This document shows, piece after piece, positions 1,965 through 32,368 of a stretch of 35,331 bases of DNA. A model generated the notes under the pieces. That model made no database searches. It saw only the letters and a list, made by a program, of their open reading frames with translations, and was not told where the DNA came from. The stretch covers positions 1 through 35,331 of IMG/VR virus record IMGVR_UViG_3300002231_000757; one strand, 5' to 3'. Every line of letters begins with the position of its first letter. The first letter of the stretch is position 1. The stretch comes from a virus. The position numbers and the translations under genes are program-made.

Positions 1965-4093
1965 ATGGCGTTCCCTGTTCATGAAAGTCTAGGTGCAGTT
2001 GATTTTTACATCTTTCGGCACTTCCGTAACGCCGGGTATTCCTGTTGGAACTTTATCCGGGGACACTTTATTAGCCATAATTTCGGCAGATTCAGCTAGA
2101 AATGTTGCTGCACCGGCTGGATGGACTGTATTAGCGGTTCAGAGTTATACGGCTAATTTTACTACATACACGTTTTTACGTACTTCTGATGGTGCTGACG
2201 TAGCCCCAACATTTGCTATTGATCTTGGTACAGAGCCAATGTTGGGGGTAATCGCTAGAATTACTGGATATGGTTCCCATACAACTATTTCAGATGCACA
2301 AACAGGCACTTCGCTAACATTCCCCGCTAATGGCACTGCAATAGCAGACACACTTGTTTATCGAATATTTGGCTGGGATGGTGGGCCTAATCCTAGTTTG
2401 GTTATGCCACCAACAAGTATCCACAACATGGGTACAGGTAGTGGTACAAATGATATTTGGACAGGCATATCGCATGAAAATGTAGCTAATGGACAACCTA
2501 TTGGAACAGCAAGTGCTACTGTAGGATCATCTGATAACACACTGTTAATAACGTTAGCTATCGCAGCGGCAATAGCGCCACCTGTTTTGTCGCTACCTAC
2601 GGCAGTTCAAACAGGCTCAACAACAGCTACGGGTACTGTCACAACAAACGTGGGAAATGGAATACTTTATTATTATATTTCAGCAAACGCTACTGAATCT
2701 TCTATAACAATTAAAACAAATGGTTTTACACAAGTTATAAACATTTCTGGGATACAAAACGTAAACGTCACAGGGTTAACTGCTTCAACAGCGTACTATA
2801 TACATTATATGCACAGTGATGTTGCTAATAATGACTCTAATGTTGTTAGTTCTACTCAATTTATAACTGATGCTCCTACTCGTTCAATAACAAACATAGA
2901 CACAGACAATGATGTACAAGCAGGGCAATCTACTTCCATAACAGGGGTAGTATTAAACTTACCTATCGTTAGTGTCACTTTAGGAGGCCAGCCACTTACC
3001 GTTACAGGAACCCCTACAGCCACCAACATAGACGTAGACATTCCACTTCACATTGATTTGCAATGGGGGCAGGTATATCAATTAGATGTAACAGACACTA
3101 CAGGCTTAATCAGCTTAGCTGGAGTAACCTTGTCCTCTGCTACGGGCTGGTCCAACATAACACTAGCATCTCTGCCTAATACAACTGCAACAGACTCTTT
3201 CTTTGAATTTGCTCAGACAGATAGCATAGTAGGCAATTTTACAGCAATTGTTGGGGATGTATTAGTATTTCAAGATTCTATTGGCCTCACTGTAAATGAC
3301 CAGACCATTCCTACTATAGATCCACCGTCAACTGTCTTTGGTGAATATAAATTTTGGAGTACTAGCTTAGGGGGGTATACACCTTTAAGTAGTTATACAT
3401 TTGAAGATGCTGGGTCAGTAGCTTCAGGTACTCAAGTTACTTCCTCTTTAGGTTCTATCTTATTAAAACAAAATATATTACGTAATGCTGTATTAGATTC
3501 TTTGCTACTGAAAGTAGGTATACCCGTTAGTACTTCTATTGATTCTGTACTAAGTAATGTTAATTCCGTTGTTGCAATTATAGATAGTATTTTAGTTACC
3601 TCAGGCACTTCAGTAAGTACTAATTTAGATTCTTTACTTAAGAAAACAGATATTCAGAAATTAGTCACATTATCTGCAATATTACAGAGCCAAAATAATT
3701 TTATTAGTTCTAACATGAATGCTATATTAACAAGCAATAATTTCGTTAATTCAAATATAAATTCTATTTTACAAAAAATGGTTACTGTATCTTCTGTATT
3801 TGATACCTTTTTAGTTAGTACAAGGTATTACTGCTATTGCAGATATAAATGCTATTTTGGCACAAACACAAAATACAATTGTTTCATTAGATGCTTTATT
3901 ACTAGCATCAGTGTCGTTATCCGCTAACATGAACGCATTAATAGCGACATTAACTATAAAAGTAACCAGTGACATTAGTGCTATACTGGATAATGGTTTT
4001 ATATCCAAGGACATAGCTTTGTTGGTAACAATATTAAAAAGTGTTACCATCGTTGATGTACCTAAAAACGATACAATTATTAAGGTTAAATAA
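1965..4093 (+). CDS. Long tail fibre: beta domains followed by a 15-residue-repeat stalk
   Basis: Structural adhesin of about 708 residues after repairing two breaks (T5 run at 2003-2007; near 3819-3825). By position: a beta-sandwich-like domain (about residues 1-200, with GTLSGDTLLAIIS), a fibronectin-III-like domain (about 204-300, LTASTAYYIHYMHSDV), then an IPT/Ig-like segment and the module shared with the preceding gene (about 303-455, VDIPLHIDLQWGQVYQLDV). From about residue 494 to the end a 14-15-residue repeat forms a probable trimeric stalk. It sits between the beta-helix spike and a small conserved virion protein. Threonine, serine and asparagine dominate, as expected for secreted-looking fibres. 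The family is not recognised precisely; the fibre role rests on architecture and context. Confidence 0.72.
3448..4075 (+). repeat. Pentadecad protein repeat in fibre stalk
   Basis: Coding repeat with a period of 14-15 residues. Core units read LDSLL, IDSVL, IDSIL, LDSLL, LSAIL, MNAIL, INSIL, FDTFL, then INAIL, LDALL, MNALI and ISAIL after the frame break. Aliphatic residues recur at fixed positions in each unit with polar Ser/Thr/Asn between, as in 15/4 coiled coils or a stacked-strand shaft. The DNA is diverged, so the repeat is old or kept at protein level. Confidence 0.75.
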
Positions 4094-14338: not shown

Positions 14339-15799
14339 ATGGCTAATGAAGCACAACTATATAACGATCCCGCTGGTGGGACCGATTCTAGTATCGGTGT
14401 ACAGTTCCGCACCGATCACTATCACAAGAAAGCACTTATTGAAGCTGCTAAGGAACAGTATTTTGGGCAATTAGCTAATGTACGTGCTATGCCTAAAAAT
14501 ATGGGTAAAACCATTAAGCAATATCATTATATGCCTTTGCTAGATGATCGAAACCTTAACGACCAAGGTATTGATGCAGCAGGTAATATTGATAAAGCTA
14601 ATGGTGCTGCTGCACAAGCTACTATCATAGCTACTGATCCTGGTGGTATGGATTGGTATTTTGTAGCAAGCGATGCTAATGCTATTTTTGCAACTGCGCA
14701 AACTAATGCTCAAACTGCTGCAGAAGCTAAAGTAGCTTCATTCTTGCTAATCCAAGGATATAACACTATTAATGATACTTTTGCTGAATTATCAGCAGCT
14801 GCTATCGTAGATGGTTGGGCATTTGCTGCTGTAGATATCAGATCAGATGCAGGTAACCTATATGGTTCATCTAAAGATGTAGGAACCATTCTAGGTAAAC
14901 TCCCTGTTCTATCTGAAACTGGTGGACGCAAGAACCGAGTAGGTCATAAGCGTATTGAACTCAACGGGACCATTAGTAAATTTGGTTTCTTTGATGAATA
15001 TACACAAGAATCTGTAGATTTCGATACTGATTCTGAATTGCAATCCCACATTGTCTCTGAATCTGTGAAAGCAGCCAATGAGATGACTGAGGATCAATTG
15101 CAAATTGATCTATTAGCAAATGCTGGTGTTGTACGATTTACTGGAGCTGCTGCTAATACAGCGTCTCTTACAGGTGGTCTTACACCAGCTGCTGGAGATG
15201 CCGTAGAATATGATGATTTAGTTAAATTAGGTATTGAGTTGGATAACAACCGAACACCTAAACAAACTACAATTACTTACTGGTTCTCGAATGGTGGATA
15301 CCAAAGTCGTTAATGCAGCTCGTTACATGTACGTGGGTTCAGAAATGATTCCTAGTATTATGAAAATGACTGATTACCATGGTGCTAGAGCTTTTGTTCC
15401 AGTTGCTCAATATGCAAATGCTGGCACAATTGCTAGGGGTGAGTTTGGTACTGTAGCTGATTTTAGGATTATTGTAGTTCCTGAAATGATGAAATGGGAA
15501 TCTGCCGGAGCAACAGTAGCAGCGCCAGATGGTGGAGAGAAAATTCCACTTTACTGGAAGCAAACTATGATGTCTTCCCTATGTTGGTTGTAGGTGATGG
15601 ATCTTTCACTACTATTGGTTTCCAAACTGATGGTAAAACAGTGAAGTTTAAAATCACTCATAAGCCACCTGGTAAAGAGATTGCTTCTCGTGACGACCCT
15701 TACGGTGAGATTGGTTTCCACTCTATTAAGTGGTATTACGGTTTTATGGCTCTACGTCCTGAACGTATTGCTGTAATTAAGACTGTCGCCGAACTGTAA
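14339..15799 (+). CDS. Major capsid protein, N4 gp56 family (two frame breaks)
   Basis: HK97-fold shell subunit of the icosahedral head. Repaired length 486 residues, with one extra base near 15274-15280 and one missing G at 15556-15557. Family signatures are [98 protein letters not shown] and the C-terminal [20 protein letters not shown]. About 87 residues (84-170, alanine-rich) lie between GIDAAGN and AGNLYGSS, where I recall N4 itself being nearly contiguous. ATG 14339 follows an AGAGGT binding site. A strong hairpin lies 22 bases after the stop. Confidence 0.93.
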
Positions 15800-21575: not shown

Positions 21576-24500
21576 ATGGAATTAGATCCTTTTACTAGAT
21601 TTAAGTTAAATGAACAAAAAGTTCACGCAGAAAAATTAAATAAGCAATTGAAATTAGCACAGGCCGCTGCTAAAAAAAGAGAACGTTTATTTTCTACATT
21701 TTCTCCCACTAAAACCAACGATATACCTTTAGGTTTTGGTATCAGGGATTTTGCTGGTTCTAATATTCAAGTAACACCTTCAACTACAAACAATCCACAA
21801 GATTTCTCTATTGATATAGAAGGTAAAGGAGCATCTCCTAGTCTTCTTGTTGATCTGTTAAGACGTAGAATTTCTAAAACATATTACGCCTACTAGTGAA
21901 GAAATTAATGCAGAAGATGCCATTAATACTTTAAAGGAACGCCAGAGAAAATTACTTAATGACTCATTAATTCAAAGCTGAGCGTGAGAAAACTTCTTTA
22001 GTTACAGATGCTGTAAAGAATACTATTTCAGGTAAATTATTAAATGCTGGGGGCATTTTATTATCTGGAGGTTCTCAAGTTATTGATGCTGTGGGTTCAC
22101 TGCCTTTTGAAGGTGTGAATGCTCTTCAAAATATTGGGATAAGTAATAATCAACGTAAACTTTTTGCTAGTATAAAAAATAAACAAATAGAACAGAAAGC
22201 ACTTCAAATAGAATTGGATAAGCTACCTCCTATAGAGGAGGATACTCCTGAAACTAGAGCACGAAGACGCCAGTTACTTGAGAGGAACTCCGCTCTCAGT
22301 TTTACTAAAGAGGAACAAGCATTATTCACTGATGGTATTAATCCAGATAGTGAAGGTTTACTGACTGAATCTACTTTTGATCAGCTACAAGAAATTGAAG
22401 TAAGAGATTCTTTTATAGATTCTTTTGGAAAATTATCAGAAGATGCAGGTAAACTGGTTAATAGAGATGTCTCTAATAAGGCATTAGGTACATTAGATAC
22501 TAAAAATAAAGAAGCTATAGCAGAATTTAAAAAAGGTAATAATTTAAAAGGCACTAAATTAATTTTAGAAGCTTTTAAAGATTTAGCTTTGGAAGACACT
22601 GAGGCTGCTATTGAGCTATTCTCTGAGTCTCTCCCTCTTATGGGGGCATTAGTTGTTTCTGGTGGCATCACCATGACAGCTTTAACTGCTCAATTTTTTG
22701 ATAAATCTGTAAAAGACTTTGAAAGTGAGAATAACAGATTACCTACCAATGATGAAAAACGTGGGATATTTGTATTGGGCACTGTATTTGCTACTTTAGA
22801 TAGGGTAGGTGCTATTGGTACAGCTCAAGCAGGTAAGATAGGTAAAACCATATTTAAAGGTTTAGAAGGAGCAGGTTTAAAACTAGGAAGCTTAAATAGT
22901 TTTTTGCTAAAGCCATTTACAGCAGGATTTAATACCACAGGAGCTGTGGCATTAGAAGCAGGAACTGAAAGTGTACAGAACGTCCTAGAACAGTTTGCAG
23001 TAAAGCAAGATCTATCTAAGGTAGATTTAGTAAAAGTTATAACAAATGGTCAATTAGGTGGTTTTGGTGGTGGTGTATTCTCTGCCCCAAGTGTGGCTGG
23101 TGCAGCTTTAGCTGTTCCAGCAGGTGTTGCAGCAAAAGGAGTGAATACTCTAGCTGAGAAACGGGATGCTTTCTTAAAAGACGCTAAAGATAAAAAAGAA
23201 GGTCAACTAGCTGCAGATCTTAAAAATAATACAGGTACTAGTGTTGAACTGGCTACTAGAATTGTTTCATCTGGTTTAGGTGATCTTAATGGAGATGAGA
23301 GGAAAGCAAGACTCAACAAATTAAGTGAACTAATAACTAAAGCCAGAAAGGAAGATCCAGAGAAAGATTTATCCGAATTAACTTCTGCATTCTCAGGTTT
23401 AGTGGATAGTCATTTAAATACGCTTGCAAAAGAAAAAGGAGAAACTGTTAAAGACAATTTAGCTACTTTAGCTGAAGAAACCACTGAAGAGAATAAAGAA
23501 GCTAAAACTGAAAGTTTTAACCAAATTGTATCCAGTATTAAAGATGGTACTGAGATTCCTTTAAAGCAACTTGAAGATACAGTATTTGGTAGTAAAGAAT
23601 TTGATGATGCTTCTAAAGAAGATCAAGACACCATAAAGAATAATATAGAGTTACTTACAGGGGCTGAAGAAGTACAAGAAAATATTCTTAAAAAAGATTC
23701 CAAGGGTTTTACTAGTATAACTACACATGCCAAGAATTTATTTAAAGCTATAGCTGTAGGAGATAAAACTGCTGCCTTAGCCACTGTTAAAGAATTAAGT
23801 AATCTAAGGCAACTACAGCAGGATAAACTTAAAGCATTAACATTAGCTGAAAAACGATTCAAGAAATCTAAAAAGCAAGAAGACTTTAAGGTTAATAGTT
23901 TTACTGGTTTTGGGGATAAGAAAACTGCTAGATTTATAAAGGAGTTTGTATCTCCTGACCTTGCTGCTATTAAATTAGCGGAGAAAGGAGCTATTGCTCT
24001 ATTCAATGATTCATTTGATGGCTCAGAGGTCGCTCCTGCACCGTTAGACTCTAAGGTAACCTTTGCAGGGGATACTACTGAAAACGTCTCTGAGGACACC
24101 TCAGACGTGTCTACGGATACATCTACTACAGAAACTAAACCAGTTACCAAGAAAACAGCTAAAACAGCTAAAACAGCTGTTACCAATTCTTCTAAAGTTA
24201 CTAAAGGTAAATTAGCGCTTAATAAGACTGGTAAAGGTGCTCTGACTAAAGTCCTAAATACCTTAAAATCACTCGGTGATAGTAAGAATAAATTACCTAG
24301 TAAAATTTTAGAGGATGAAAGAGCTGCTCAAATAGAAACCCTAAATAAAATTATTGGTGAAAATGGTACTAATGAAGTATCTGAAGAAGAATTTAATTCT
24401 ATATTAGAGAATTTTAAAATATTAAGAAAAGATTTCTTAGCTTTTGATACAACTAAATCAGGGGAAGAGAATGCTAAAATTGTTGAGTCTAAAAGAGCAA

Positions 24501-27500
24501 CTCAGGCAGCAGAAGCTAAGAAGAGAGCTGCACAAAGAGAAAAAGATAAAGCTGAGCAAGGAGTAGAAACTAAAAAAGTATCTGAAACTAAAGCTACTGA
24601 AGTTAATACAAAAGCAGGTAAAGACTCTATTGTAAATGAACAACCAATTGCAGATGAATTATTAGAGAATACCAATGAAAAAGAAGCTTTGATTGTTAAA
24701 GCAGCTAAAGCTTTAGTAGAAGCTGTCAAAAAAGGTACTAAAAAAATTATAGGATTACCTGTTGGTACAACTGTTAATACATTATTTTCTAAGAAAGCTA
24801 AAGCTCCAGTAGGTATTCTAAGTACAGTTCCTGATTTTTTTACCAAGATTAGGAACGATACTCTTAGTAGCTCAGTAATTACCCGGATCCTTGCATTAGC
24901 TGAAGAAGAGACTGCCGTACTTGAACCTCTTCAGAAATTTGTTAGTGCTTTTAGTAATACATTATCTAAGGCAATTCTTGAATTAGATTCTAATGCAGTG
25001 TTTCCAGAACAAATTAATGGAACCAGATCCTCCTTGGAACGTAATCCTTTATTATTCTTTGCAAAAAGAGATTCTAAAGGTAATTTAAGTTTACCTGAGA
25101 ACTTGGTCAGTATTATGAGTACTGTTGGGTTTAACTGGTTAGGTACTAGAAGCAGAGAAACACTTACTAATACAGCAGATGATATTAATAGCATTATAGG
25201 AGCACCTATAGGTACACCTATATCTCCTCGTAATTTAGCTACTTTTCAGAATGTAGGTATAGTTCGAACAGTATTGGCTGAAAATTTAGGTCGTCAGGTA
25301 GTTAAACAGTTGGGTATTAAAATAACTGACACTAATAATTCAGAGGTTATGGCTAAATTAGAAATGGCTGTTGGATTAGCCATGATAAAAACGATGGAAG
25401 ATAATAATTTAGTTGAAATTAGCTCAGTTTCTGCAGAAAGGATGGCTTCTGCAAATGGTATTGAAGATTCTGAAACTAATTTTGATCCTACAAAATCAAC
25501 TAATTTTGTACGTGCTAAATCTACAGCTAAAGTAATTAAAACTAAAAAAGGTAAAGCCAATAAACAAGGTAAACCTGTACTTATTAAAAGTATTTCTGAA
25601 ATAGAAGATTTATTGAGTAAAGCTCCTGAATTTTTAGAATCTTTCTTCGGAATTACTTCCAGTAAGGTATTAGCTGGTTTAGAACCTAATACAGAAATAC
25701 CAAAAACATTAAAAGGTAATAAACAAAAATTACCTTCTAAATTTAAAAAAGTTTTACAGAAGATGCAAGCTGTTAAATGGGAGATTAAACAGAATACTCA
25801 TAATGTTGTTAACAATATTGATAGAACCACTCTACTTAAAATGAGTGGTTGGGTTGATCTGGATAGTGAATCTTTTATTCATACTGATAGGCGTAAACAG
25901 ATAGAAGCAGTAAATGAGGAAATAGAACGTACTATAGATAATTATTTTCTTAATGTTAAGCATGTAGAAAATAATGGTGGATTAAAATCTCCTATCTATC
26001 TTTCCTATGAAGTATGGAAAAATTTCCGTATAGGCATAAAAAATAATACTTTAAATCCCCAAGGCAGTAAGATTATACGTCACCTCATAGGCGTTCGTTC
26101 CTGGAATACTACTGTAGGGGTTAAGGATAAAAGCAGAGTTAACTTTAAGTTAGCAGTAGCTGCTGCATTTGGTTTTGGCATAGATAAAAATAGTTTAGAA
26201 GACAGCTTAAAATGAATTTGAAAGATTACGTAAAGATCCTGTAATTAAAAAAGGAATAGCAGCCCTTAAAGTTATTAATAATCCCAAATCATCAGCTTCT
26301 AAAAAGAAGACTGCTGAAGAAGATCTTGTAGCTGCAGTTAAAGTAGGAGGTGAAGACCTACATAGCTTTGATGGCTTAGTAGCACTGGAAGCCTATAAAG
26401 TTACTAAATCTTTTGAAACTAATATAGGACTGGAGACAGATGGTGTTACTAATGGTCTAGCCCTTGCACTAATGCAAATGCCTGCTGTTTCTAATTCTGA
26501 GTTAGCTTCAGTAGGCATATTCGTCAATGAAGAAACTGGATTAACTTACCCAGAATGGAAGAGTAAACAAGGTAATCAGGATATTTATCAAAAATTAACT
26601 TCTGAGTGGCAAAGGCAGGTTTATTTGTTAGGACAGGGCAATAAAACTATTGCTAAAAAAATTACTGCTTTGGAGTCTTTAATTGGTGCTTTCGTAGATG
26701 CTGATAATCAAGTCACATCTCTCGGAAGACAGATGAGTAAAGACCCTGTCCTATTAACTAATTATGGTGCAGGTAGCGACAGTATTCTTGATAATCTTAC
26801 CCCTATAATTATAGAGAAAATCCAAATTGCTTTAGAAAAAGCTTCACAGGCTAAAGCACCTTCGTCGGTAGAAGCTGAAACCAAAAAAATAGTTACAGAT
26901 ATTTTTACCTTAGCAGGTAAGAAAATTCCTAAAGACTTAGATTTTTCAGATCCTCTTAATTTATCTATAAGTGCAAAATTAGAAACTGTTTTAAGAGGTT
27001 CTATACTAGAAATTTATGGTAATACTTTAAAATCAGCTCTTGAGAAAAAATTAGGATTCTTTACAGAATTTAGGGAAAAAATAAATAATTCCTTAAATAT
27101 CATGTTTGATATATTTAACAAGAAATTTGAAGACAGACAAAAAGCAGAAGTAAAAAGGCTGGGTAGAGAATTATCTTATCAGGAAATCTCAGATATATTT
27201 GATTCTCTCCAAAAATTTCAACCAATAATTAAAACACCTTTCTCTAAAGGAAAAGAAGATGGTCTGTTAGCAGTTAAACTAATATCAGAGAGAGATTACA
27301 AGAGGCTTAGGGATGCTTCTCAGGTTAATTATTCTAAAGGACAACCTAAGTCAGCTGTAGGAGTTATATCCCATACAACTTATCTTAACCCTGGTGTATC
27401 AGGCTTAGTGACAGCTACTCATGCACAGGATGGTTCTATTCAAACTAATATATTTGAGGAGTTTGAAGCTCTCAATATTCATGATGCAGCCATATATGGC

Positions 27501-30500
27501 ATAGCAGATGCTTCTGAGGGTACTAAAACAGCTAATAAAAGCTTCTGGAAAGTAGGAACTAATTATTCAGTATTTCAGGAAGTAACAAATGCTCTTACAG
27601 CTTTAGTTGATGATATTAATTCAGATGCAGGAGCCATGAAAGCAGCAACACAGTCTGTTAGAGCAACTACGAGAGCTAAAGACTTTCCTACCATTAGAAA
27701 CTTTCTAAATGAAATGGTTGATTTTAATGGTTCAGTACAAGCTGCTAGAGCAAATTTACTCAGTGAGGGTCCTATTGGTATAAACCAATTTGCTCTTCCC
27801 GGAGATAGTTCTTTTGAAGCCAATACAGAAGAAACGGTAGAAGTAACTGAAAGCAATATTAAAGAGATTACTGACTCAGTACATACTGAACAAGGTGAGA
27901 TAGCGCCTAGAACTGAACTTCAAATGCAAAATATTTTTAAAGGCATGAAGGATGCTCGTGAATTAGTAGCTTGGTTAAAAGATAATGCAACTACTCCAGC
28001 AAGAAGAGCAATTGCTGCACGCATACAAGAATTAATTCCTGAAGGTGTAACATTAAATTTAAATGCTAAGTTTCCTGTATTAGGTACAGCCAGCTTTAAT
28101 AAATTTAGTGATGAAAGACAGTTTGTGCCTGTATCTATTAGTATACTATCCATTGAAAATGCTGGTAGAAATAAAAATGGGGCTAATGAAATAACGTGGT
28201 TGCATGAATTATTACATGTAGCTACTGTTACTACCCATCAAAGAATAGTTGAAAGAGTTAAATTAACTGAAGAAGAATCTGAGGTACAAGATAACGTACT
28301 AGCAATAGATAATAAGTTAAAAAAACTTATTGCAAATATTTTAAACTCTCCTGAGTTTAATACAAAAGAATCTCTCACAAGATCTGATGAAGAAGTAGCT
28401 AGAGCTGTCGAGAATATGAGACTCTTTAAGAATGCTTTTAAAAATACTCAGGAAATAATTAGTTGGGGATTAACTGATCCTGATTTCCAGAGAGTATTAA
28501 GACAAGTAAAAGTAACTAAAACCAGGTCAGCATGGAATTCTTTTATTGAATTAATGCATGATCTACTTGGTATATCCAAGGATAATTCAGCATTAACTGA
28601 ACTAGTTGATCTATCTTCTCAGTTATTTGATGTAGCTATTCCAGATGGTCCCAACAATCATTTAACAGCTCTGGAAAAAGAAAGAGTTGCATTAGAAAAT
28701 GAAAGAGATGAAATTGATAAACAAATAGCTGAAAGTATTAATGATGAGAGCATAGATGTAAATGCACTTGAAATTAAAAGAAATGAGCTTTTGGAACAAA
28801 TTCTGGACAATCTTAGAAAAGATGATCCAGATAAAGTATTTAATTTATCCACTGAAAAAGAAGAATCAACTACTTTTAATTCTTCAAATGAAGAAAATAT
28901 TGATTTTGATAATTTTACTTCTCAATTTGATGAGAATCTTACAGCTAAGAATTCTGTAGAGATATTTGAAAAAGTTAAACAATATGGTAATAAACAGGAT
29001 TCACCTTCCCATACTGCACACCTTAGAAGCATATTAGAGAATATAGTTAATAAGGTATTGGTTAGAATGGACGCTCAGGATTTCCGTTTAAAAGTAGATG
29101 GCGATAAAACATTTGGAGCGGTAAAAGGTAGAAAAATATTTATTAATGCTTCTGCAACCAGTCGTATAAATAGCCATAGTGAAATGAGTACACAGGAGAC
29201 TCATGTCCATGAGTTATTACACACTACTATGGCTTACGCCATAGATAACTCTTTCTTGTTTAGACAGGAATTACTTAAAATATTTAACGGAGTTAAAGAT
29301 AGAATTACTCCTGATGATTTCTTACTACGTGATGAAAACGGTGATGTAGTAATTAAAAATTCCCTAGAACAAGAGAAAGCCAGTGCTACTGAGAGATATA
29401 ATTATATCTTTAATAATTCCAGGAATATTAAAACTAGTGATCAAACAACTAAAAATGCATTCTTACATGAATTTGTTTCCTTTGGTTTAACCAATGAAGT
29501 TTTCCAGAAAAAATTATCTTCTCTTATTGTTGATAGTACGGTTAAAGTGCCATTGACAGCAGCACAACGTATTAATAATTGGTTTATAAATGTACTTAAC
29601 TGGATTGGTTTTAAGTTTGAAAAGTTACGTAATACAGAAACTGCAGACGTTGCTTTACGTAATTTAGTTGAGCATACAGCTCACACCATGAATAAGCAGC
29701 GTAATAGCCTTCTGGATAAGATGCAGATTAGTCAACAGCTTAATGATAAAGCATCCCAGCTTGCTGTAAATAATATAGTTGAACCTTTTGTTAAATGGCG
29801 TAAAACCAAATTAGAAACATCTACTTCCAGAACAGGAAAAGTATTAAATGCTATTGCTGTGCTGCCTGATACTGTCAGAAGCAAGAAATTTAAAAAAGTA
29901 TTAAGAGAGTTTCTCAGAAGATTAAAAATTACTGAAGATGGTTTATTACTTTCCCTGGTAAGAGAAGTATCCAAAACATCTGTAGATGGTCTTAGATGGC
30001 ATGAATTACTGCGTAAGTCTAAAGATATTATTGACAGGGCACGTAAAACAGCTTCTGAAGAAATTATTGAAGAAATTGAAAATACATTTCTTACAGGAAA
30101 ACCTAACAGTAAGGAATCTACTGCTATTACCAAAGCACTGTTAAAACAGATTTGGTTACCCTTATTGGTAAATATAAGATTAAAGATATTCTTACAGACT
30201 CATCTGAACTGATTAAAGCTATTCAGGATACTCAAAAGGAACTTGATTCTTTTGGCCCTGAAAATAAATCTTATTACGTTAACCAAGCTAGAGGACTAGG
30301 TTTATTAATGGCCTCAGGGGTCGTAGGATTGTATGGATTGCAATTAAACGCTCAAAGTATAGCTACCCTACAGGGTACCCAACAGAGCCTTAAAGAGGGC
30401 TCCTCAAAGCAGGCAGAAGAGATTATTGATAGATTAGCTTCTCTTTACGCATTACAGAATACAGATACTGTGCATAAAGATACTCTCAGTACAGTAATGG

Positions 30501-32368
30501 AACGTGAATATGCTGAAAATGGGGATGATAATGGCATTATCCATTTGCTTAATTTACATGCTGGTGTAAAAGAAGAAGCCTTAAATTCTGTATTTAAAAA
30601 CCAAAAAGGATTAATGATTAAGGGATACACACATGAAACTATTAACCCTAATACGGATATTAAAATAGGCTCTAAAGAAGATGAAGCTGAAATGAACAGA
30701 GCAGGTTATGTATTACATGCTGTTCTTGATCAGGATAGATTTGACAGATCACCTTCTAGAGTAATGTACGTATCTAAAAACAATGCTTCTATAGCCTACC
30801 TAAAAGCTACAGCTTCTCTTACTAATAAAAACAGTAAGGGTTTTAGTTTTCTGGATGCGTATGAGTCTACTCACGCTATGACTGCTATAGATAAAGCAGA
30901 TGAAGCCCGACGTAAAATGAATGCTAAAGTTGATCCATTAATAGCAGCACAATTTAAAGGCACTGTTGCACTAAATACTACAGATCCTATTATGCTACCT
31001 ATCCGTAATTCTAACGGTAAGGTAACGGGATATAGATATGTTCTATCTGAACAATTTAAGGATGAAGTATTTGAGAAAGATAATAGATTTGATCATGTTA
31101 TGGGTAGTATGTGGGGTTCTCTTAAAGATAAGAAGAATTCTAAAACTATCAATAAAGAGGTTATTGATCTAGCCTATGAAGATTTCCAGAATGGGTTTGC
31201 AGAAGATCCTGATGCTTTCGTAAGAATAGCGCTAGATAGTGAAGATCCTAAATTCAGGGAATTGTATAAATTATTACCTAAAGATATGCGTAGAGATATG
31301 ATGGATGTCTTTGGTTCAGACCATATGTTTGTACGAAAAGAATTTGTTGATATTATTTTTGGATATCGAAAAGCTTCTATTGGTAATATTTTTAAAAATA
31401 GTAAAGCACCTTTAGCTAAATCAATAAACAGAGCTTTAAATTTAGGTAAAGTTAAACAGGCTGAACTTATTTGGCAAGAGATAGTTAATGTAGCCAAAAC
31501 TAATATTGTTATCAGGAACCCTGCAGTAATATCAGCTAATTTTATTAGTAATTTAGCTTTATCTTGGGTTAAAGGAGTTCCACCTGGTTATTTGATTAAA
31601 AATCAGGCATTAGCTTTACAAGCTCTAAGAGTTCATAGAGTAGATATCCGGAAATTATCTGCATTAAAACGAAAGGTAAAAATTGATAAAAACCTATCCA
31701 ATTCAGCAGTTACTGCTTTAAATGAGCAGATCTCACAATTAGAGAATAATATTGAGAATAATCCCGTTAATGAATTAATTCAGGAAGGTTTATTTCAAGC
31801 TATAACTGAAGATGTTTCTGATACTCGTTCTATCTACAATTACAGAGATAAATTAATTAATAAATCTAAAGTAATTAAGAAAATACCTAAGCCTATTAAA
31901 GCAGGTGCTGAATTAGCTTATTTATCTGAAGATACTACTATATTTAAGACTATGCTTAAAGCCACTCAATATAGTGATTTCATAGCTAGATTTGCTTTAC
32001 ACAAGCATAATACTGAAGTTAAAGGAATGACTAAGAAAGAGTCTATACAAGATGTAGTAGATGCTTTTATTAATTATGATGTACCTACCAGTAAAGAATT
32101 ACAGTACTTAAATGACATGGGCTTCTTTATGTTCAGTAAGTTCCTATTCAGAATTCAGAAAGTAATATTACAAAACTTTACTGAGAATCCAGCAAGAGTT
32201 CTTTCTTTATTATTAATGCAGGGTGCATTTGGTGGTATAACAGACATACTGGATGATAATTTAATTACAGGAAGCATCACTGGAAGAATGGGTTTCTTTA
32301 AAGGCCCATTTAATTCAGCTACAGATGTTCAGGGATTAAATATTTTATCAGGTATGTTTGGGTATTAA
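21576..32368 (+). CDS. Virion RNA polymerase (vRNAP), N4 gp50-like giant protein (four frame breaks)
   Basis: Single-subunit DNA-dependent RNA polymerase packaged in the head and injected to transcribe early genes. Repaired length 3,596 residues; N4 gp50 is about 3,500. Breaks are near 21862-21879, at 21973-21977, at 26209-26212 (A4 for A3) and near 30141-30148 (one base missing). Residues 1-1050 are a helical, Lys/Glu-rich ejection-type region with Gly/Ala-rich hydrophobic stretches. Residues about 1085-2000 are the polymerase core: T-motif Arg1484, motif A Asp1621 (ETDGVTNG), motif B Arg1717/Lys1721/Tyr1729, motif C Asp1969 (IHDAAIYG). Residues 2209-2631 hold two HELLH domains. The C-terminus is helical, ending at 32368. 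The third break falls inside the core between the T-motif and motif A, so it must be an artefact if the phage is viable. A GTG-rich SD (AGGTGTG) precedes ATG 21576. Confidence 0.93.
24152..24178 (+). repeat. Three copies of the 9-base unit AAAACAGCT
   Basis: Perfect tandem triplet repeat encoding Lys-Thr-Ala units inside the Lys/Thr/Glu-rich linker between the N-terminal region and the polymerase core of vRNAP. Prone to slippage, and probably a flexible tether. Confidence 0.9.
24829..27560 (+). other. Polymerase core of vRNAP
   Basis: Catalytic region within the giant protein. Landmarks by base: T-motif Arg at 26027-26029 in PIYLSYEVWKNFRIG; motif A Asp at 26439-26441; motif B Arg 26727-26729, Lys 26739-26741, Tyr-Gly 26763-26768 in RQMSKDPVLLTNYGAG; motif C His-Asp at 27480-27485. 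Spacings T-A 137, A-Lys 100 and Lys-C 248 residues compare with 135, 111 and 281 in N4 from residue numbers I recall (424, 559, 670, 951). All catalytic residues I know are present. Confidence 0.92.
28050..28640 (+). other. First HELLH metallopeptidase-like domain of vRNAP
   Basis: HELLH at 28203-28217 (EITWLHELLHVATVTTH) fits the HExxH zinc site. A Glu at 28452-28454 in QEIISWGLTDPDFQRVL lies 83 residues on and could be the third ligand, as in gluzincins. An amphipathic helix follows (AWNSFIELMHDLLGI). The order is the same as in the second domain. Confidence 0.7.
29040..29700 (+). other. Second HELLH metallopeptidase-like domain of vRNAP
   Basis: HELLH at 29208-29222 (ETHVHELLHTTMAYA). A Glu at 29469-29471 in LHEFVSFGLTNEVFQ lies 87 residues on, then NNWFINVLNWIGF. 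The three landmarks repeat those of the first domain, about 335 residues apart, so the two domains look like an ancient tandem duplication. Confidence 0.7.

Follow-up and report, generated by a model that had tools for sequence, protein, structure and literature searches.

Two predicted gluzincin-type domains with intact sites in the virion RNA polymerase of an N4-like phage

The window analysed here, a stretch of 35,331 bases out of a 57,895-base virus record (IMG/VR record IMGVR_UViG_3300002231_000757), carries a virion RNA polymerase (vRNAP) gene that is spread over three open reading frames (21971-26215, 26211-30212, and 30113-32368). All three match phrog_2206, the virion RNA polymerase family of PHROG (E 3e-93, 3e-122, and 4e-187, respectively), and the portal, major head protein and tape measure families are found upstream of the gene, which identifies the virus as an N4-like phage (Schitoviridae). 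The N4-type polymerase core and the conserved C-terminal region of schitovirus vRNAPs are both present. The first break between frames (26205-26215) falls at a short run of A and the second (30113-30212) in a stretch that also contains one, as sequencing indels would give. Further upstream, the match to the major head protein family is limited to positions 9-204 of a 356-position profile, in the frame 14339-15313 (region 14339-15799), and is followed by overlapping frames from 15234 and 15494, possibly another frame break in the record. The features of the vRNAP gene, in which copy 1 belongs to a domain type called A and copy 2 to a type called B, are as follows.

21971 to 26215, plus strand: upstream frame of the vRNAP gene, with the N-terminal part and the start of the polymerase (phrog_2206 positions 532-1379)
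26472 to 30209, plus strand: middle open frame, 1246 aa from its ATG (open from 26211; phrog_2206, E 3e-122)
26472 to 27641, plus strand: end of the T7-like polymerase part (marker R; iterated profile; present in 71/71 vRNAPs)
27906 to 28730, plus strand: copy 1 (A), inserted zincin-like domain (E 4.5e-55 to the A5 profile, which itself includes copy 1; missing as a block in the relatives L119, L120, and L122; model pLDDT 75)
28203 to 28217, plus strand: HELLH of copy 1, aa 578-582 (H, E, H invariant in 86 A-type domains and in 71/71 vRNAP A domains)
28452 to 28454, plus strand: distal Glu of copy 1, aa 661, at +83 (invariant column E192 of A5)
28527 to 28571, plus strand: Trp-bearing helix after the copy 1 Glu, SAWNSFIELMHDLLG (from the sequence; helix in the model)
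28731 to 28868, plus strand: charged linker from copy 1 to copy 2 (from the sequence)
28869 to 29741, plus strand: copy 2 (B), zincin-like domain of the core, with an orthologue in every vRNAP examined (B profile; pLDDT 87, pTM 0.81)
29208 to 29222, plus strand: HELLH of copy 2, aa 913-917 (conserved in 40/40 and 52/52 where B is intact)
29469 to 29471, plus strand: distal Glu of copy 2, aa 1000, at +87 (conserved in 40/40 and 52/52 where B is intact)
29559 to 29609, plus strand: Trp-bearing helix after the copy 2 Glu, AAQRINNWFINVLNWIG (from the sequence; helix in the model)
30113 to 32368, plus strand: downstream frame, with the conserved C-terminal region (phrog_2206 positions 2669-3392, E 4e-187)

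A sequence-only reading of this DNA had reported that three landmarks occur twice and in the same order downstream of the polymerase core: an HELLH motif, a glutamate 83 or 87 residues further on, and a tryptophan-containing helix. Every one of them is found in the middle frame (26472-30209). The HELLH motifs stand at aa 578 (nt 28203) and aa 913 (nt 29208), in a single unbroken frame; the distal glutamates at aa 661 (EIISWGLT, nt 28452) and aa 1000 (EFVSFGLT, nt 29469-29471) give exactly the spacings reported, and each is followed by its Trp-bearing helix. Two HExxH motifs arose by chance in 6 of 20,000 shuffles of the middle-frame protein, and even one E-x-x-S-W/F-G-L-T segment in 3 of 20,000 shuffles of the same protein; the evidence from homology is far stronger for both motifs than such statistics. 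No Pfam family was found for the region that holds them. Among 86 domains of the copy 1 type, compared at about 20% identity, the H, E, H, and E of the predicted site are the sole four invariant columns, and the same four residues are conserved in 40/40 intact domains of the copy 2 type.

How do these domains fold? Each set had been likened to the zinc site of gluzincin peptidases, with structure prediction proposed as a check, and the answer is firmer for one domain than for the other. The model of copy 2 is confident (pLDDT 87, pTM 0.81), while that of copy 1 is fair (pLDDT 75), with a poor strand region (pLDDT under 50). In both models HELLH lies on a helix (residues 104-125 with the motif at 109 in A; 108-127 with the motif at 114 in B), and the candidate third ligand lies on a later one (190-199 in A, 197-208 in B), E661 and E1000 being invariant along with the motif. 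The best match to the copy 2 model is N4 residues 2374-2592 (Z 10.2, rmsd 4.1, 186 residues). Its strands and helices also match the catalytic domain of anthrax lethal factor (Z 6.7, rmsd 4.1, 147 residues) and PPEP-2 (Z 6.2, rmsd 4.0, 138 residues), VIA scores of 6-7 to zincins being in a range where common arrangements also turn up. The copy 1 model, with its strand region under pLDDT 50, has as top matches N4 residues 2379-2591 (Z 7.2, rmsd 6.7) and lethal factor (Z 6.4, rmsd 4.8). Foldseek gave no match in the PDB at E<=0.001 for either model, and the usable scores come from VIA only; against predicted viral structures (BFVD), the copy 1 model retrieved the vRNAP of Vibrio phage phi 1, polyvalent proteins and internal core proteins. 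Conservation and fold matches together imply that the two histidines and the glutamate would meet at the site. Sequence, conservation and predicted fold thus support both copies as gluzincin-type zinc peptidase domains with intact predicted metal sites, and this part of the earlier interpretation, gluzincin-type domains in a packaged vRNAP, stands; a duplication, as the word "tandem" would suggest, is not borne out, and a role in maturation is disfavoured.

The two domain families are homologous, the A and B profiles aligning motif on motif and Glu on Glu (hhalign probability 98.2, E 4.7e-14), whereas copy 1 and copy 2 compared directly reach only E 0.002. By blastp, copy 1 is nearest to a DarB-like protein of Serratia phage Parlo (28% identity, E 3e-16) and to LUZ19 gp37 (27%, E 2e-12), matches that place it in the A type independently of the A5 profile; copy 2 is nearest to the second domain of Vibrio phage phi 1 (E 2e-30). 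In the zincin-domain tree the B domains form a clade apart from A. Copy 2 represents the core domain shared by all vRNAPs, and copy 1 is an insert missing from the nearest relatives. A telling case is offered by phi 1 and VCO139: a clean block of 218 residues, the A domain, separates flanks in which the two vRNAPs are 94.6% and 97.3% identical. The window's A, too, belongs to a block that the nearest relatives of the window (L119, L120, and L122) do not have, and A is therefore a module gained or lost whole. The sequence-only reading had named loss of HExxH in close relatives as evidence against it. The outcome is mixed, since these relatives lack the entire copy 1 block but conserve copy 2 in full. 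Internal core and polyvalent proteins that have no polymerase also carry A-type domains. In a quick gene tree of zincin domains the window's copy 1 grouped with non-vRNAP proteins; an AU test did not reject its grouping with the A of N4-type vRNAPs (p 0.54). Comparison shows A to be a mobile module of the kind present in other giant phage proteins delivered with the DNA, here inserted between polymerase and B.

Scanning viral contigs for the middle-frame protein alone returned zero relatives, and alignments were therefore used for the wider comparison. The first set held 71 vRNAPs (70 from isolates and IMG/VR at under 70% identity, plus the window), classed by iterated profiles, with site states scored within aligned columns. 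B is present in 71/71, always ahead of the conserved C-terminal region, and A lies between polymerase and B in 34/71; the distance from polymerase to B agrees with the presence or absence of A, except in the A-less L138 and L151, which have long unexplained spacers. The unusually long insert of L151, between polymerase and B, holds an extra HELGH (aa 1072 of the vRNAP frame) unlike either zincin type. A is absent and B intact in 37 of these vRNAPs, A is intact and B dead in 31, both are intact in three, and none is without an intact site. The same holds in a larger set of 122 vRNAPs (under 80% identity): an intact A is combined with a dead B in 69, B is intact with no A next to it in 49, both are intact in three, and the remaining one is L225. 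The count of vRNAPs without any intact HExxH+Glu site is thus 0/122. To the question of whether both motifs are kept in N4 gp50 and other vRNAPs, the alignments answer that an intact site is kept in 122/122 and both sites in only 3/122 (the window, Vibrio phage phi 1, and 1.238.A), the second one being dead in N4. Wherever a site is intact its H, E, H, and E are conserved, in 71/71 A and 52/52 B domains.

Several individual records deserve mention. L225, a candidate for a vRNAP without an intact site, was rejected as such: its frame (from base 2) carries an A-type zincin at aa 955-1164, ahead of the polymerase, with an intact HEVVH at aa 1042, and its usual second domain, B, is dead. It lies within the B-dead clade as the sole member without an adjacent A. 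L234 was missed by the domain filter and, read by hand, has A intact and B dead. L025 (frame from base 3), one of the 49, has an A-type zincin ahead of the polymerase (aa 774-999) as well as an intact B behind it. Two Enterobacter phage records, PQ898399.1 (SonariX, 248,734 bases) and PQ864023.1 (SABI, 76,175 bases), give an identical vRNAP match, and the SonariX record may be a joined or mixed assembly.

The dead B domains retain the fold signature. Among the 69 aligned, the second His has become Glu in 40 and the distal Glu has become Arg in 37, often giving LExxE...R; the joint occurrence of both changes in 33 suggests that a salt bridge may have taken the place of the metal. On a tree built from polymerase and C-terminus, with the zincin columns left out, B inactivation is one change, so the 69 cases go back to a single evolutionary event that has been retained and do not count as 69 separate ones, and the rows behind the association of A with dead B are not statistically independent. 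The three double-intact vRNAPs stand apart from one another on this tree, each surrounded by A-less, B-intact neighbours, and the window falls on the B-intact side.

N4 itself has been described in some detail. Iyer et al. (2017; PMC5512222) state that N4-like RNAPs carry "one or more" zincin-like MPTase domains, and PMC8472413 repeats that N4 vRNAP has such a domain. Bellis et al. (2025; PMC12633501; PDB 9PNR) solved the C-terminal domain (CTD) of N4 gp50, assigning an HExxH to C1 (2124-2375), reporting no structural homologues for C2 (2376-3500), and calling the role of the CTD in early transcription unknown. In our alignments N4 gp50 has one HELVH, at 2228, with a Glu 82 residues further, and its B site reads F2456-Q-M-V-T2460. 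On the strength of a profile match and of the Z of 10.2 to the copy 2 model, N4 residues of about 2376-2592, the first part of C2, are the dead counterpart of copy 2. No activity test of a vRNAP zincin was found in the open literature searched.

The best explanation, to which we would give a probability of about 0.7, is that the window's vRNAP carries two intact gluzincin domains, B belonging to the core and A inserted, that one site is obligatory, and that it acts after ejection. No vRNAP could do without an intact site. Along the N4 branch, A would have taken over the role and B turned into a dead scaffold; the window still has both intact. The same degree of belief attaches to the wider proposal that all schitovirus vRNAPs must deliver one active zincin, that the takeover of B by A in the N4 branch left an unrecognised dead zincin in the N4 CTD, and that double-intact proteins represent the state in between. 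We infer zinc, peptidase activity and action after ejection: the predicted peptidase would start to work when the ejected chain has regained its fold inside the host, and would either attack a protein of the host or of the ejectosome in trans or trim the vRNAP itself. A substrate in trans is slightly favoured over cutting of the vRNAP, because the active domain changes its identity and its place in the chain without being lost, and because delivered proteins that lack a polymerase also have A-type domains, a distribution that ties the role to delivery and not to transcription.

Self-processing after refolding is nevertheless a close rival, if a tentative one: the zincin would cut the vRNAP itself, for instance freeing the polymerase from an inhibitory CTD. 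The zincin domain is indeed flanked by the polymerase and the C-terminal domain, N4 transcription is damped by the CTD, and autoproteolysis has been proposed for related polyvalent proteins such as P1 DdrB; yet recombinant full-length gp50 shows no degradation, the intact zincin of L225 lies in front of the polymerase, and proteins lacking a polymerase also have A-type domains. It is unlikely that the domains are not peptidases at all, be it an HExxH metal enzyme of another kind (an alpha-ketoglutarate-dependent oxygenase with this motif, for instance) or a structural domain stabilised by metal. HExxH domains of the oxygenase kind are cited by Bellis et al., Foldseek lists one of them, 8s5f, as a weak hit (E 1.2), and dead B is a fold that persists without its site, but the best folds outside vRNAPs are zinc peptidases (lethal factor, PPEP), and the general-base Glu is invariant along with the three ligands. 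Somewhat less probable still is processing of the vRNAP or of head proteins inside the capsid during assembly, which the sequence-only reading had put forward for the giant protein. That option is raised by Iyer et al., and encapsidation is reported to require the CTD region; a maturation or constitutive protease is disfavoured, however, because N4 vRNAP is packaged unprocessed (PMC5512222) and its protein of about 383 kDa purifies intact and undegraded (PMC12633501). A recent tandem duplication in the window's phage, as the word "tandem" had implied, is rejected: the copies are homologous, with aligned motifs and HELLH in both, but each is far closer to other proteins (E 3e-16, 2e-12, and 2e-30) than to its neighbour (E 0.002), and B is a clade of its own.

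If one obligatory zincin is indeed the rule, what follows? That 122 diverged vRNAPs have, without exception, kept an intact site points to a metal-dependent, probably proteolytic, step needed in infection by Schitoviridae, whose substrate can now be sought. Part of a cryo-EM domain reported without homologues, N4 C2, gains a fold and an origin. The family would also illustrate clearly how one of two tandem domains can take over catalysis from the other, and double-intact vRNAPs such as the window's would show the in-between state that makes the passage from B to A possible.

The HELLH...Glu domain of the window's vRNAP is a new instance of a known domain, since a zincin in N4 vRNAP has already been described (Iyer et al., 2017; Bellis et al., 2025); the pairing of two intact domains and the rule of "at least one intact" look new against the open papers searched. 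The MPTase domain of N4 vRNAP and polyvalent proteins (PMC5512222) shares with the window's domains the predicted fold class, the HExxH with a distal Glu and the place after the polymerase. The passages of Iyer et al. examined mention neither a dead second domain nor a swap of the active copy, nor a rule that one site is always intact. C1 of N4 gp50 (9PNR), which carries HExxH, is the positional counterpart of copy 1; N4, however, has one intact site, in its upstream domain only, against two in the window, where both domains keep theirs. Anthrax lethal factor and PPEP resemble copy 2 in its predicted fold (Z 6.2-6.7) and in the HExxH...Glu pattern of the metal site, but these gluzincin peptidases have no detectable sequence relation to the vRNAP domains, whose peptidase activity is predicted. 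Vibrio phages phi 1 (Pacinivirus) and 1.238.A (Pariacacavirus) have tandem HExxH domains at the same two places as the window, their A domains being only distantly related to its own, and VCO139, the near-twin of phi 1, is without A. The closest named sequence relatives of copy 1 are the LUZ19 gp37-type internal virion protein (PDB 9sfn chain G) and the Parlo DarB-like protein. Neither is an RNA polymerase, and LUZ19 gp37 has one zincin domain joined to other modules. As 9sfn chain G, a 1337-residue "Internal virion protein" of the length of LUZ19 gp37, matches copy 1 at E 7e-8, an experimental structure of an A-type zincin probably already exists.
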